IMG/VR virus record: IMGVR_UViG_3300037136_000114
Location: 1-45,536 of that record
Origin: a virus
Direction: 5' to 3' (one strand)
DNA length: 45,536 nucleotides
Each line of letters starts with the position of its first letter. The first letter of the stretch is position 1. Position numbers and translations under genes: made by a program. This document shows, piece by piece, positions 230 to 45,431 of this stretch. The notes below the pieces were generated by a model. That model saw only the letters and a program-made list of their open reading frames with translations, was not told the origin of the DNA and did not search any database.

Positions 230-2726
230 ACCACTCATTAAAGCAGTCAAATTCTCAAGAGCACTGCGTATTGAGCGAGCAAGAAAAGAGCTCCTCGCAT
301 TCACAGTCCTCACAAAACCTGACTACCAGGTCAGTTGGCACCACAGAAAACTCTCTGCCAAGCTTGATGCTTTCGCCCGAGGAGACATCAAGTTTCTCAT
401 GGTATTCATGCCCCCACGGCATGGTAAGCTGTGCAGCGTGGATACCCCAATAATGACGCCAAACGGACTCACAACTCACGGCAATATCAAAAAGGGGGAT
501 TATGTTTTTCATCCCAGCGGAAAACCCATAAAGGTATTAGCTAAAAGCAGCCCCATTAAATCAAACGCCAAGATTTATTTCTCAGATAGTTCGATAATTG
601 AATGTCATTTAAATCATGAATGGACTGTTTTTGATCGGAGTTACGGTAGAGAGTTTACCTATGAAACCCACCATTTTTTAAAGAAAACAAAATTTGGAAA
701 AAAGATGAATTGTTTTTCTGGTGGAAGATCGAAATATCAATTACCTGAAATTTCAGCCCTTGAGTTTAAAGAAGCTGTTTTGCCAATGCATCCTTATGTA
801 TTGGGCGCATGGCTTGGAGATGGTACATCTAAAGCTCCTAGAATTACTCATGCACCTTCGGACAATGCGGTTATAAGTAAAATAGTTTCTTTAGGATTCA
901 AAGTATCAAGCATAACCGTTCACCCAAAGTCAGGATGTTTAACCACAGCCTTTGCTGGAACAAGGAACAATGCTGGCCCCATGAGTGCTTCTCTGAAAAA
1001 TCTTGATTTAATAAAAAATAAACATATTCCACAAAAATATAAATTATCTTCAATTGAGCAGCGTTTAGAACTCATAGCCGGTCTTATTGATACAGATGGG
1101 CATGTAGAGCCAAAAACAGGTCGAGTTAGAATAGTAACTGTCTCTAAAAAACTAGCCGATGATATCTCTGATGTCGCTACAACTCTTGGATGGCATCCAT
1201 ATGTAACAATTCAAGAACCATCTCTTTCGAGTAGTGGGATACAGGGAAGAAAGTCTGTTTACACGGTAGGATTTCAACCTGACAGAGAAATACCAGTGGC
1301 CTTAGATCGGAAAAAAATTAAGCGATTTGCTAAACGTAGACGAATAGGGATAGTGAAAGTCGAAGAAACAACAGATGGTAAATTAGGCCATTGCATTCAG
1401 GTGGATTCCCCAGATGGGCTATATCTTGTGGGAGAAAAACTTATCCCTACACACAATTCTGAGCTTGTTTCTCGCCGACTCCCCGCATTCCTCCACGGAC
1501 TCTACCCAGACTGCGAAATCATGGCGGCTTCTTACCTGGATACGTTGGCTTCTGACATGACCATTGACGTTCAAAACATCATCGATAGTCCACTTTATAA
1601 GGAGGTTTTTCCTGAAACATCTATTTACCCGCCAGGGACCAGCTACACTAAAGGAACAAGAAACTCTTCCGAGCATCACATTATCGGTCGAAGAGGTAAA
1701 TATCGCGGCCAAGGTGTCGGAGGTTCTTTCACTGGAAAAGGGGCCAATTTCATCATTATCGATGACCCGATTAAAGGACGGGAAATTGCAGATTCAGTTG
1801 CATTTCGAGAACGACTCTGGAACTTCTACAACAACGATTTATTCTCACGGCTCGAGACCAATCTTGAAACGGGAAGACAAGGGCAAATCCTAATCACTCA
1901 GACGCGCTGGCACGAAGATGATCTCTCGGGACGCCTCCTTGAACTAATGGCAAAAGATAAAAACTCGATTCAATGGGAGATTTTATCCTATCCAGCAATT
2001 AGGTGTGATATGGACACCGAGTCCGATACTAGAAAAATTGGCGAGCCGCTTTGGCCTGAGAAATACAACATTGATCAGCTAAATCAAATCAAAGCCAGCA
2101 TCGGTCCGCGCGCATGGGGATCTCTTTATCAGCAATCACCAGTCCCAGATGGCGGCGGTTTATTTAAAGATGAGATGTTTGGCTTCTGCGACGTGAGCAT
2201 TAAAGACGTTAGCTATTCATTCATTATGGCTGATACGGCCTACAAAGAAAAACAAGAGAATGATTTCACTGTCTTTACACTCTTCGGCGTTAAAGAAGAA
2301 CAGCTCTTTGTCGTCGATGTGTTACGGGCACAAATAAAGGCCTCGGATATCGAATCAGCATTTGAGCCATTCGTTAGAAAATACTGTAGAACTTATGGAT
2401 ATCGTGGAACTTATATTGAGCCAAAGGGTCATGGGATTTACCTAAATCAAGCTTGGGCCAAGAAGGGTCTCATGATTCCAGGCGATACAGATATCGAGGA
2501 ATTCTACAAGGACAGGCGCTTTGATAAAGTTGAGCGAGCTAATAACGTTGTTCCGCATCTTGCTAATCGTAAGGTTTACTTCAATAATCTTATTGGGAAC
2601 AAGGAAGACTTAGTTGCGGAATGCTTAACATTTCCAAAGGGCAAGCATGATGATTTCCTAGATACTTTAGTTGATGGCCTAAAAATGGCTTATGGGCGAT
2701 CAATATCGATGTTTGATGTTTACTAA
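222..2726 (+). CDS. terL: Terminase large subunit, interrupted by an intein
   Basis: 834 codons encode a 491-residue packaging ATPase/nuclease plus a 343-residue intein (residues 70-412). The ATPase drives DNA into the prohead and the C-terminal nuclease cuts the concatemer. The Walker A motif PPRHGK (64-69) is completed only after splicing by S413-E-L. Walker B is FIIIDD (about 510-515). The RNase H-like nuclease domain starts near ADTAYK (D671), with further acidic residues in KHDDFLD (D810, D811, D814). The mature length is normal for a phage large terminase. The gene overlaps terS by 8 bases and is followed after 21 bases by the portal gene. The family call is secure; splicing is inferred. 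Confidence 0.95.
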   Translation: MNEPLIKAVKFSRALRIERARKELLAFTVLTKPDYQVSWHHRKLSAKLDAFARGDIKFLMVFMPPRHGKLCSVDTPIMTPNGLTTHGNIKKGDYVFHPSGKPIKVLAKSSPIKSNAKIYFSDSSIIECHLNHEWTVFDRSYGREFTYETHHFLKKTKFGKKMNCFSGGRSKYQLPEISALEFKEAVLPMHPYVLGAWLGDGTSKAPRITHAPSDNAVISKIVSLGFKVSSITVHPKSGCLTTAFAGTRNNAGPMSASLKNLDLIKNKHIPQKYKLSSIEQRLELIAGLIDTDGHVEPKTGRVRIVTVSKKLADDISDVATTLGWHPYVTIQEPSLSSSGIQGRKSVYTVGFQPDREIPVALDRKKIKRFAKRRRIGIVKVEETTDGKLGHCIQVDSPDGLYLVGEKLIPTHNSELVSRRLPAFLHGLYPDCEIMAASYLDTLASDMTIDVQNIIDSPLYKEVFPETSIYPPGTSYTKGTRNSSEHHIIGRRGKYRGQGVGGSFTGKGANFIIIDDPIKGREIADSVAFRERLWNFYNNDLFSRLETNLETGRQGQILITQTRWHEDDLSGRLLELMAKDKNSIQWEILSYPAIRCDMDTESDTRKIGEPLWPEKYNIDQLNQIKASIGPRAWGSLYQQSPVPDGGGLFKDEMFGFCDVSIKDVSYSFIMADTAYKEKQENDFTVFTLFGVKEEQLFVVDVLRAQIKASDIESAFEPFVRKYCRTYGYRGTYIEPKGHGIYLNQAWAKKGLMIPGDTDIEEFYKDRRFDKVERANNVVPHLANRKVYFNNLIGNKEDLVAECLTFPKGKHDDFLDTLVDGLKMAYGRSISMFDVY
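429..1457 (+). other. TerL intein with LAGLIDADG endonuclease (class 3-like)
   Basis: In-frame 343-residue insertion. The N-terminal Hint block reads LCSVDTPIMTPNG and the C-terminal block ends LIPTHN before the +1 Ser. Removing it exactly restores PPRHGK-SEL, which fixes the borders. Two LAGLIDADG-type motifs (LGAWLGDGT and IAGLIDTDG) show an embedded homing endonuclease. Aligned on the DT of block A, position 1 is Leu rather than Cys, Ser or Ala. Trp65 (NHEW), Cys322 (GHCIQVD) and Thr341 (PTHN) match the W-C-T residues that define class 3 inteins, which begin splicing from the block F Cys. The alternative reading, Cys71 of the precursor as residue 1, would leave an extra Leu inside the Walker A motif. 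Confidence 0.9.
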
Positions 2727-2747
2727 CTAGTTTCAGGGGGATAACAG

Positions 2748-4301
2748 GTGGGCAAAAAAGTTACAAAGAAGAGCTCTATTAAAAATGTTTCACGTGGAAC
2801 AAAAAAGGTAGAGAACGCAAGCGCAAATGAATTCATAGGGTTCGGTCAGCCTCCAAAGGGAGGCTTAGCTGGCATTCCAGGCGGCCAAACATTTCAACCT
2901 GTTGAAGACACCACAACAATGTTTACCAACCTTCGTTGGTATCTCATATCAAACTTCCGCCAAGTCCTCTCTCAAGGTTATGTGGAGCTAGGACTAATAC
3001 AAACCATTGTGAACGTTCCAATTGACGATGGATTGCGGGGCGGAGTTTTGCTTAAATCCAGACAATTAGATGAAAGCCAAATCAGGGAACTCCAAATATC
3101 ACTCGACCGTGACGACGATATCAATACATGCGGATGGGCAGCAAAGTGGAATAGATTATACGGGGGTGCTGGAATTCTTATACTCACAGATGATCAAGAC
3201 CCCGAAGAACCATTCGACATCTCAAAAATCACGAAAGAGACGGACTTAGAGTTTCGCGCTGTAGATATGTGGGAGCTGTTCTGGGATAAACAGAACACCG
3301 AAGGATATGACCCGCAAATCCAAGCGCAGGATTTTGAGTTCTACAGCTATTACTCAGAAAACATTCATAAATCGCGAGTCATGCGTCTTAAGTCCATTCA
3401 AGCTCCAAGCTTTATTCGTCCACGCTTAAGGGGTTGGGGAGTTTCGGTTGTTGAGGCGCTAGTTCGCTCCATCAATCAATACCTAAAAGCAACAGACCTT
3501 GGCTTTGAAGTGCTCGATGAATTTAAGATCGATTACTATAAGCTAAAAAACCTAGCCAGTTCTCTTCTCTCCCCTAATGGTTTCGAGAAAACAGCTAGAC
3601 GAATTCAGAATATGAATCTGCAAAAGAACTATAACCATGCCGTTGTAATGGATACCGAGGATGATTTCATCCAAAAGCAGTTGTCCTTTGCGGGCTTGGC
3701 TGAGGCAATGGACGGTATTCGTATGCAGGTCGCGGCCGACATGAGGATGCCCATAACAAAGCTCTTCGGGACTTCGGTTAGCAAGGGATTCGCAACAGAT
3801 CAAAACGACATGGAAAACTACAATTCCATGGTCGAATCTGAGGTAAGAAACAAACTCAAATACGACATTCTTCGAATATGCGAAATTAAATGCCAAAAAC
3901 TCTTTGGCTTTATTCCAGATGACATGGAGCTTGAATTCAAACCGCTTCGTGAGCTTAGTGCCATTGACCAAGAAACCGTTCGCACTCAGAAGTTCGCAAG
4001 ACTTCAAAGTGCGGCTGATACGGGACGCATTTCCCTTCAAGAATATCGAGATGCAGCTAACAAGGGTAATCTCTTTGATATTCAACTCGATACCACAGAA
4101 GACGGTATTGATATTGGTGACAACGAAGAAACTGAAGTCGCAGGCGAGGAAGAATCTCGTGATCCGGAAAAGGATTTAGACGTCGAAGATCCGGGAGCCA
4201 ATCGATTTGATACTAGGAAGGTTCGAGGCGGTATTGATCTCGAGCCACAAGCTCCAGGGGCAAAAGAAATGAAACCAGGTAAAGAGGGGAAGGATAAATG
4301 A
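2748..4301 (+). CDS. Portal protein (DUF1073 type)
   Basis: The 517-residue protein follows terL and precedes the MuF gene, the usual portal position. It resembles DUF1073 portal proteins: an N-terminal stretch with YVELGLIQTIVNVPIDDGLR, a central region with VRSINQYLKATDLG and MRMPITKLFGTS, and an acidic, charged C-terminus. The portal forms the dodecameric ring at one capsid vertex through which DNA is packaged. The start is GTG at 2748, preceded by a GGGGGAT Shine-Dalgarno. The stop overlaps the next small ORF (ATGA at 4298). Confidence 0.9.
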   Translation: MGKKVTKKSSIKNVSRGTKKVENASANEFIGFGQPPKGGLAGIPGGQTFQPVEDTTTMFTNLRWYLISNFRQVLSQGYVELGLIQTIVNVPIDDGLRGGVLLKSRQLDESQIRELQISLDRDDDINTCGWAAKWNRLYGGAGILILTDDQDPEEPFDISKITKETDLEFRAVDMWELFWDKQNTEGYDPQIQAQDFEFYSYYSENIHKSRVMRLKSIQAPSFIRPRLRGWGVSVVEALVRSINQYLKATDLGFEVLDEFKIDYYKLKNLASSLLSPNGFEKTARRIQNMNLQKNYNHAVVMDTEDDFIQKQLSFAGLAEAMDGIRMQVAADMRMPITKLFGTSVSKGFATDQNDMENYNSMVESEVRNKLKYDILRICEIKCQKLFGFIPDDMELEFKPLRELSAIDQETVRTQKFARLQSAADTGRISLQEYRDAANKGNLFDIQLDTTEDGIDIGDNEETEVAGEEESRDPEKDLDVEDPGANRFDTRKVRGGIDLEPQAPGAKEMKPGKEGKDK

Positions 4302-43623: not shown

Positions 43624-43806
43624 TTGCTAGAAAAGCTTGGGTTATCGTTTACAGCCATTTTTAACAGTGCAAGAACCACGGTCGATGGTGGATGGAGAAT
43701 AACCTTTGATCTCTCAAACACCGATTCAGACAAAATTTCCGAAATCGCTGCCCTTCAACATCAACTTTTACAAATAGCTATTATCCCAATTGGTGATTCT
43801 GAGTGA
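43624..43806 (+). CDS. Hypothetical protein, 60 aa
   Basis: TTG start at 43624 after GGGGGAGGG. FTAIFNSARTTVDGGWRITFDL then DKISEIAALQHQLLQIAIIP resembles small phage proteins of a beta-strand plus helix fold. The stop overlaps the methyltransferase start (GTGA). Confidence 0.6.
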   Translation: MLEKLGLSFTAIFNSARTTVDGGWRITFDLSNTDSDKISEIAALQHQLLQIAIIPIGDSE

Positions 43807-45431
43807 TTCATCACGGCTGTTGTCTTGATATTCTAAAAACTCTCCAAGAAAATTCTGTGGATGCAATTGTAACCGACCCTCCATATGGCTTAAGCTTTAT
43901 GGGCAAGAAATGGGATTACGATGTGCCTAAGGTCGAGGTATGGCGTGAGATCATGAGGGTTTTGAAGCCCGGGGGGCACGCACTCATCGCTTGCGGCACA
44001 CGCACGCAGCACAGGATGGCCGTTAACATTGAGGACGCGGGCTTTGAGATCCGGGATGTAATCAGCTATTTATACGGGAGTGGATTCCCAAAATCTCTCA
44101 ACGTCCAAAAGTCTGCGCGATCGGCGGGGATTGGTTGTGACTGCGAACCGAAAGCCAAACTCGAAATGCCCTCAATGTCTAATGCCAATGTACAAAAGAC
44201 CGTTTCAATTGAAGAGACAGAAGACGGCTCTTTGCAGTCGGGCTTGCAGGAACAAAACATACAAACATCTAGGACCGAGGGGGCCAAACCCGAATCTTCA
44301 AATGGAAAAGAATCCTGCATGGAAGGGCGGAGTGACCTTCAAGAGAACCAAGGGGAATTACATCGGACCGAAGTATGTGCGATGTCCGAAGCAATTCTTG
44401 GCGATGGCACGCAAGGACGGTTACATAATGGAACATCGTTTAGTGATGGCGCAGAGCTTGGGTCGGATGCTGAGCCGAATAGAAGTAGTTCACCACAAGG
44501 ACCACAACACTCGGAACAACTTAATAACCAATCTGGAATTATTTGCGAACAACGGCGAACACAAACGTGCGGAAGCTGTGGCAAAGCAATCTTTGACCCA
44601 GGTCTAGGCACAGCACTTAAGCCCGCATGTGAGTTCTGGACGCTAGCCCGTAAACCGATCTCAGAGAAGACCGTTGCCGCGAATGTATTGAAGTGGGGGA
44701 CGGGGGGACTCAATATTGATGCGAGTAGGGTTAGTGGCGAATATAAATGGAGAGCAAGCGACTCAAGGGATTTTGGAGAATCCTCATTTAAGTCCGGTTC
44801 ATTTGGCGATGGGCCCAATGCTCAAGGCCGCTTCCCCGCGAACCTAATCCTAGATGAAGAAGCAGCGGCTATGCTTGATGAGCAGACGAAGAATTTACAT
44901 GGGGCAGGGTTTAAAATTCATGATAATTTTGTGGGAAATAAGGGGAGCAAAAATATAAATCTTGGGGGTGGAATTACAAGCAATAGATTCGGCGACACCG
45001 GCGGTGCATCCCGCTTTTTCTACGTAGCTAAAGCGTCAAAAAGCGAGAGAAACGCTGGGCTTGAAATAGCTTCAAAGCAAAACGCTCAAATTGATGGCGC
45101 TATTTTAAATGAAGATGACTCTGGAAATCCAAACACAAGGGGCCGAAAAGCTAATCCCATAGATTGCGTTACCCAAAATAAAAAACTGCATAAAGAAGGT
45201 AATTTTCACCCCACTGTTAAACCCATAAAGCTCATGGCCTATCTCTGCCGCCTAATCACGCCTCCAAACGGCATAATCCTCGATCCATTCATGGGATCTG
45301 GCTCAACAGGAGTTGCGGCTAAGAACCTAGGCTTTGAATTCATCGGCATTGAGCGTGAAGCTGAATATGTCGAAATCGCTAAGCGTAGAATCATGAAAAT
45401 AACACAAGATTACAGCGAAAGACTGTTATGA
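43803..45431 (+). CDS. DNA methyltransferase (beta-class) with an internal HNH gene
   Basis: 542 residues from GTG 43803. The DPPY motif TDPPYGLSF (25-33) and the FxGxG-type SAM motif DPFMGSGSTG (494-503) occur in the order of class beta amino-methyltransferases (N6-adenine or N4-cytosine). Between them are ALKPACEFWTLARKPISEKT and a long insertion. Residues about 110-262 read as a Ser/Gln/Glu-rich chain because another frame here encodes an HNH nuclease. That region is bounded by Cys motifs (GCDCE and TCGSCGK), perhaps halves of one zinc ribbon. The enzyme may protect phage DNA from restriction. Confidence 0.9.
   Translation: MIHHGCCLDILKTLQENSVDAIVTDPPYGLSFMGKKWDYDVPKVEVWREIMRVLKPGGHALIACGTRTQHRMAVNIEDAGFEIRDVISYLYGSGFPKSLNVQKSARSAGIGCDCEPKAKLEMPSMSNANVQKTVSIEETEDGSLQSGLQEQNIQTSRTEGAKPESSNGKESCMEGRSDLQENQGELHRTEVCAMSEAILGDGTQGRLHNGTSFSDGAELGSDAEPNRSSSPQGPQHSEQLNNQSGIICEQRRTQTCGSCGKAIFDPGLGTALKPACEFWTLARKPISEKTVAANVLKWGTGGLNIDASRVSGEYKWRASDSRDFGESSFKSGSFGDGPNAQGRFPANLILDEEAAAMLDEQTKNLHGAGFKIHDNFVGNKGSKNINLGGGITSNRFGDTGGASRFFYVAKASKSERNAGLEIASKQNAQIDGAILNEDDSGNPNTRGRKANPIDCVTQNKKLHKEGNFHPTVKPIKLMAYLCRLITPPNGIILDPFMGSGSTGVAAKNLGFEFIGIEREAEYVEIAKRRIMKITQDYSERLL
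44137..44607 (+). CDS. HNH endonuclease encoded in a second frame inside the methyltransferase gene
   Basis: 156 residues from GTG 44137 (GGCGGGGA upstream); the frame is open from 44080. SKCPQCLMPMYKRPFQLKRQ, TALCSRACRNK is a zinc-type N-terminus. KDGYIMEHRLVMAQSLGRML and IEVVHHKDHNTRNNLITNLE is a standard phage HNH core, followed by LFANNGEHKRAEA. It is in the +1 frame relative to the methyltransferase over its whole length, and both frames are open. This is a nested homing-type endonuclease gene. Confidence 0.8.
   Translation: MTANRKPNSKCPQCLMPMYKRPFQLKRQKTALCSRACRNKTYKHLGPRGPNPNLQMEKNPAWKGGVTFKRTKGNYIGPKYVRCPKQFLAMARKDGYIMEHRLVMAQSLGRMLSRIEVVHHKDHNTRNNLITNLELFANNGEHKRAEAVAKQSLTQV

Follow-up and report, generated by a model that had tools for sequence, protein, structure and literature searches.

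A mobile nuclease gene must spare the gene that it enters, and introns and inteins do so by splicing. An HNH endonuclease hidden in the methylase genes of actinophages, the ShiLan domain, has been described (Arsenault, Gosselin and Gogarten 2025, PMC11855218; PMC9957025). Nested HNH genes have also been annotated in several mycobacteriophages, including the cluster A1 phages Molly and StellaBean and likely Applejack (PMC12613952). Other insertions, those of mobE and mobA, split the phage genes in which they are found, i.e., Aeh1 nrdA and T4 gene 60 (PMC2988022).

Here a DNA stretch of 45,536 nt (the window; positions 1 to 45,536 of IMG/VR record IMGVR_UViG_3300037136_000114) is described. It is a phage contig and carries terminase, portal and contractile-tail genes. 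Near the right end of the window, a gene for an HNH homing-type endonuclease is situated in the hypervariable loop of a phage N4/N6 DNA methyltransferase (MTase), in what is very probably a homing element that does without splicing.

Relatives and Sampling

Viral, bacterial and phage collections were searched both with the HNH sequence alone and with the MTase, and 196 loci were obtained (L numbers below). After near-duplicates were removed by a k-mer threshold, 75 HNH genes remained that lie in the +1 frame inside MTase ORFs. Trees were made with FastTree from 333 columns for the MTase and about 150 residues for the HNH. Uninserted MTases were picked by similarity to the window MTase, HNH similarity brought in most of the inserted ones, and proportions given here are not to be read as frequencies. 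All evidence is comparative, and most loci are metagenomic contigs.

Table 1. Positions of the MTase gene, the nested HNH gene and their motifs in the window
Feature	Position	Strand	Basis or remark
N4/N6 DNA methyltransferase host gene	43803-45431	+	542 aa; PF01555 E 3.8e-34; PHROG_67 E 1.6e-73
Conserved MTase motif GSGFPKS	44076-44096	+	directly 5′ of variable loop
CxC motif (CDC), MTase frame, N-side of loop	44136-44144	+	coordinates; comparison with relatives
HNH endonuclease gene, +1 frame inside MTase	44137-44607	+	156 aa plus stop; likely start GTG 44137
Insert read in MTase frame, predicted disordered loop	44145-44567	+	AF2 and synonymous null
Zinc finger of HNH protein, CPQC ... CSRAC	44167-44247	+	Cys conservation in 72 relatives
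HNH catalytic core, EVVHHKDHN ... NNLITNL ... EHK	44482-44565	+	His/Asn conservation in 72 relatives
CxxC motif (CGSC), MTase frame, C-side of loop	44568-44579	+	coordinates; comparison with relatives
Conserved MTase motif GTALKPAC	44607-44630	+	directly 3′ of loop

The Methyltransferase Gene and the Nested HNH Gene

The GTG start of the MTase ORF overlaps the stop of the preceding ORF (43624-43806). The N and C catalytic halves of the MTase are both intact, and the core is modeled by AF2 with a pLDDT of 90+. A first-pass annotation, made from the sequence alone, had placed a complete HNH nuclease with recognisable zinc and HNH motifs in the +1 frame of this gene, at 44080-44607. Both frames are indeed open and match PF01555 and HNH_3, respectively, and both motifs are present (Table 1). 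The match of the +1 ORF to HNH_3 (PF13392) has an E value of 1.3e-7 and, with 31.6 bits, exceeds the curated family cut-off of 24.8; several PHROG HNH endonuclease families are also matched (E 4.5e-17). The window protein has the catalytic His/Asn and the zinc-binding Cys residues by which HNH_3 members are recognised. In 72 relatives, Cys11, Cys14 and Cys37 of the zinc finger are invariant and Cys33 is nearly invariant; in the core, N128, N132 and H142 are invariant, and H119, H120 and H123 are nearly so.

The AF2 model of the HNH protein has a pLDDT of 89.4, and its best match among solved structures is the homing endonuclease I-HmuI (1u3e), with Z 5.8 over 74 residues in VIA-align. A Foldseek search with the model gave weak matches only, none at E<0.001, and the HNH profile found only unrelated zinc fingers, with weak E values, among PDB sequences. 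Thus the structural link to I-HmuI is drawn from the VIA-align score only.

The end of the annotated span, 44607, stands, but its start does not: GTG 44137, or TTG 44131, is a likelier start than GTG 44080. A start at 44080 is unlikely because codons 44080-44136 overlie the conserved GSGFPKS part of the MTase, and because relatives start with ATG where the HNH homology begins. This homology starts near position 44140, and in 40 of the 49 direct-loop relatives (those with the insert in the loop and no intein, the window among them) an ATG is found there; the equivalent position in the window is GTG 44137. A Shine-Dalgarno scan did not reveal a convincing sequence 5′ of the window HNH start, and only weak ones in relatives, scores of 4 or more being found at 30% of HNH starts vs 21% of control positions. 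At the other end of the gene, the final base of the HNH stop codon forms the first base of the GTALKPAC motif. The HNH gene had also been termed overprinted. The nesting is borne out, but not the birth of a new gene within an old one, since the HNH is the older, conserved coding sequence and what is derived is the reading of the insert in the MTase frame.

The Insert in the Methyltransferase Frame

In the MTase frame the insert had been described as a linker between two Cys motifs, and this agrees with the positions of CDC and CGSC and with the predicted disorder between them: MTase residues 118-252 mostly have a pLDDT <50 in the AF2 model. A CxC at the loop start and a CxxC at the loop end are found together in 33 of the 49 direct-loop relatives (the other 16 are without one or both) and in 1 of 26 intein-borne copies. 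Neither motif is present in 57 uninserted MTase loops. Motifs of this type are also found in mycobacteriophages Molly and StellaBean. The two motifs may hold the loop together at its base as a zinc clasp. This is offered as a suggestion, since the model displays only isolated bridge residues beside the Cys motifs.

At the same site, uninserted MTases have 16-148 residues of variable sequence. Many of these uninserted loops (e.g., L061, L071 and L039) contain an in-frame conserved segment that resembles a helix-turn-helix, for example RFTEWVRSTGITSKQIDEATGTNMGGHY in L058.

Stop Codon Avoidance and Selection

To obtain an expected number of host-frame stops, the synonymous codons of the window HNH gene were permuted such that the protein and its codon usage were preserved. 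The shuffled sequences have on average 8.7 MTase-frame stops, vs 0 in the window, and none of 50,000 shuffles was free of stops. There are 46 junctions at which a third-position T in the HNH frame would give a stop in the host frame, and 0 of these have a T. Thus the open MTase frame is not a matter of chance. The pattern extends to all 75 distinct HNH relatives nested in MTases; every one is in the +1 frame and has zero host-frame stops, vs 7.0 expected by shuffling. Third-position T before AA, AG or GA has a frequency of 0.000 in nested HNH genes vs 0.319 in non-nested ones.

The absence of stops follows, however, from nesting in an open ORF, and a fair statement thus concerns the whole clade. 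Among the close relatives found by HNH similarity, the exceptions to nesting in an open MTase frame number only five (L127, L140, L159, L167 and L190), and when checked singly, all five adjoin, span or separate MTase genes. The four HNHs that stand apart have 14-31 host-frame stops vs 12-27 by shuffling, which is near expectation, and that of L190 has 1 vs 4 expected. The L190 locus (1322-3408) is from a Curtobacterium plasmid; there the HNH of the window lineage is part of a long ORF that adjoins, and is outside of, an insertion-free MTase.

A comparison of codon-position conservation in the two frames had been proposed as a check on the annotation. When relatives that are 60-70% identical are compared, the proportion of differing sites in the HNH frame is 0.32 at first, 0.26 at second and 0.55 at third codon positions, with four-fold sites close to saturated; this substitution pattern indicates that the HNH frame is under ordinary purifying selection. 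For the loop in the MTase frame, aa identity at large divergence is 0.217, vs 0.213 for stop-free random synonymous sequences, and no selection on the loop amino acids was detected beyond that which keeps the frame open. By this comparison the MTase frame is selected for openness and not for residues. A frame kept open without residue conservation argues against RNA splicing, for which an open frame would be unnecessary, and against a loop that serves as a functional MTase domain.

Distribution and Mobility

On the MTase tree, the presence and absence of the insert involve at least 19 state changes. The nearest MTases to that of the window are all without the insert, and the HNHs nearest to that of the window (L133 and L007) reside in MTases outside this nearest group. 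HNH and MTase distances are weakly correlated (r 0.13). Two pairs of loci display transferred tracts: L033 and L126 are identical over 658 bp that span the insert, and their flanks are about 84% and 81% identical; L067 and L157 have HNH DNA that is 86% identical, with flanks at about 60%. Relative to insert-free relatives, L033 and L126 have had the whole variable loop exchanged, with the conserved GSGFPK and GTALKP as its limits, which is what break repair with co-conversion would be expected to produce. A search for an identical or near-identical empty allele of the window MTase found none, and the nearest MTases, L080 and L091, have a wholly different loop; thus no clean insertion boundary is drawn for the window.

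From these comparisons the element is considered mobile, the patchy distribution and the transferred tracts indicating a homing-type spread. The earlier proposal of a mobile HNH that leaves its host ORF uninterrupted and has no need of splicing is in accord with 75 stop-free copies of 75, a patchy distribution, HNH copies more similar than their flanks, and the lack of an intron or intein signature. It was accompanied by a call to compare relatives with and without the insert, and uninserted relatives proved common, as expected of a mobile element. It also held that copies with a broken HNH but a conserved linker frame would speak against it. Copies with a truncated HNH and a still open MTase frame do exist (L012-L014), but they are expected of a mobile element and do not refute the proposal; the pattern is that expected if the MTase must still be made.

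Three Architectures of One HNH Lineage

The same HNH lineage is found in three architectures at or near one place: directly in the loop, in an intein, and between the halves of a split MTase. The direct-loop architecture, to which the window belongs, comprises 49 loci; these are without an intein and have the insert in the loop downstream of the intein site, with the exception of L118, where it is upstream of GSGFPKS. In the intein architecture (26 loci), the +1 HNH is inside an intein between YG and SGFPKS, i.e., the intein site is immediately before SGFPKS. The 26 inteins have an invariant first Cys, a block B His and a terminal TGN, and a profile of 23 of them matches a solved intein (AceL NrdHF) at E 3.8e-8. 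In L191, L178, L166, L155, L172 and others, the +1 HNH overlies the intein region that normally holds an in-frame endonuclease. The split architecture is found in L140 (2113-3661) and L159 (1103-2701), where a separate HNH gene is between two MTase half-genes at the same place. On the HNH tree the architectures are clustered, yet there are at least 9 changes. A literature search on inteins with an out-of-frame endonuclease found none, a preprint on actinophage intein architecture (cited in PMC11855218) lying outside the search.

A broader reading has about an even chance of being correct. One HNH lineage would be bound to just one alternate reading frame in phage MTases and would spare the host protein interchangeably, by a Cys-pinched disordered loop without splicing, by an intein with an out-of-frame endonuclease, or by a split gene, and the insert would supply its own tolerance device, the CxC...CxxC clasp. 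If so, the clasp would do without splicing what introns and inteins do by it, and the inteins whose endonuclease is out of frame would represent a new intein layout. With one nuclease lineage in inteins, bare loops and split genes, the origin and interchange of these strategies become testable.

Other HNH genes are also associated with these MTases. HNHs in the +2 frame are found further downstream in the MTase in L038 (4335-4784), L141 (3815-4267), L158 (3830-4450), L183 (3872-4507), L180 (4292-4720) and L107 (3579-4067), in each case except L107 as the second HNH of its MTase; those of L141, L158 and L107 are located after the ARKP region, as in ShiLan. L036 (509-916) has a +2-frame HNH of a more distant group at the window-type loop. 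In L067 (2276-2794, minus strand), an HNH_3 gene (E 3.3e-11) is antisense within an MTase ORF that also bears a +1 HNH.

Proposed Mechanism and Alternatives

The sequences themselves display both open frames, the stop avoidance, purifying selection on the HNH, the patchy distribution and the transferred tracts; HNH expression and cutting, homing, tolerance of the loop, MTase activity and zinc binding are inferred. The HNH gene occupies a naturally hypervariable MTase loop, always +1 to the host gene, and its codons shun every combination that places a stop in the host frame. Since host-frame stops are avoided, ribosomes that translate the MTase would read through the insert and produce a long disordered loop, whose base may be pinched, plausibly as a zinc clasp, by CxC and CxxC in most direct-loop relatives. 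The HNH would be translated separately from an internal start and may cut insert-free MTase alleles of co-infecting phages, and repair would then carry over the insert together with part of its flanks.

An unrecognised intron or intein, with the open host frame incidental, should also be considered. HNH genes are often carried by group I introns, and true inteins about 20 codons upstream do carry this HNH lineage, as the AceL NrdHF match shows. However, no Rfam match at E<=1 is found over the whole gene, the window MTase matches no intein model and its sequence has no block A, B, F or G motifs, and an intron would not need the stop avoidance that every relative displays; a spliced element is thus highly improbable. 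Also very improbable, if a little less so, is that the insert is kept as a useful MTase loop, a target-recognition or regulatory domain, with the HNH frame a relic. The insert does sit in a variable loop that may be the target-recognition region, and host-frame CxC/CxxC are confined to inserted genes, but in the host frame no residue conservation is seen apart from that imposed by the HNH, whereas HNH residues are invariant, and the HNH is distributed largely independently of the MTase tree.

Production of the HNH as an MTase fusion by +1 ribosomal frameshifting, in place of internal initiation, is unlikely. The +1 relation shared by 75 of 75 nested copies and the absence of a clear ribosome-binding site are compatible with it. 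Yet the HNH frame opens one codon before the ATG in L114 and L130 and two codons before it in L067, which leaves little room for a shift, and the ATG at the start of homology in most direct-loop relatives (40 of 49) also speaks for internal initiation. That the MTase gene is decaying, with its open frame left over, is highly improbable. Phage MTases are often dispensable, and the ShiLan methylase was described as not essential (PMC11855218), but the catalytic core here is intact and confidently folded by AF2, and independent loci display strong selection against stops in the host frame, the frame being open even where the HNH is truncated (L012-L014).

As a probable splicing-free homing element, this HNH family suggests a third route by which a nuclease may spare its host gene, one that leaves a codon signature, the lack of T before AA, AG or GA, which can be measured and searched for in other genes. 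It also brings a caution, as an unusual low-complexity loop in an annotated protein may be another gene in the wrong frame.

Comparison with Known Systems

Several systems resemble parts of this arrangement. The homing endonuclease inteins at YG^SGFPKS of the same MTases hold sister HNH copies, likewise out of frame, here with the intein, but the window has no intein. The mobE/mobA insertions are like this lineage in that a homing endonuclease is tolerated in a host gene without splicing, and the split MTases of L140 and L159 can be compared with them; however, mobE and mobA split their host genes, and the window host ORF stays single and uninterrupted. I-HmuI, the closest structural match to the HNH model, is encoded by a group I intron, unlike the window HNH. 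The nested HNH of Molly and StellaBean, as in the window, is in the same loop and in the +1 frame, with host-frame Cys motifs (CDC...CSWC), but its nuclease domain is PF01844 HNH and that of the window is HNH_3.

In both ShiLan and the window, a phage DNA methylase contains an out-of-frame HNH_3-type nuclease with a zinc finger, the host frame is free of stops, there is no splicing signature, and copies are patchy and move horizontally. The window displays the features of the ShiLan kind: an HNH ORF wholly inside a stop-free methylase ORF, no intron or intein signature, and a disjunct distribution. It is not the same allele, as site and frame differ; ShiLan (in Mantra, L003) is after GTALKP..ARKP and in the +2 frame, and the window insert is before GTALKP and in the +1 frame. 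Unlike ShiLan, the window element has a different HNH subfamily, flanking CxC/CxxC motifs and, as far as relatives show, non-actinophage contigs. Thus this kind of arrangement was already published with ShiLan in 2025, and, judged from sequence comparison, the novelty of the window element is in its site, frame, HNH subfamily and host range.
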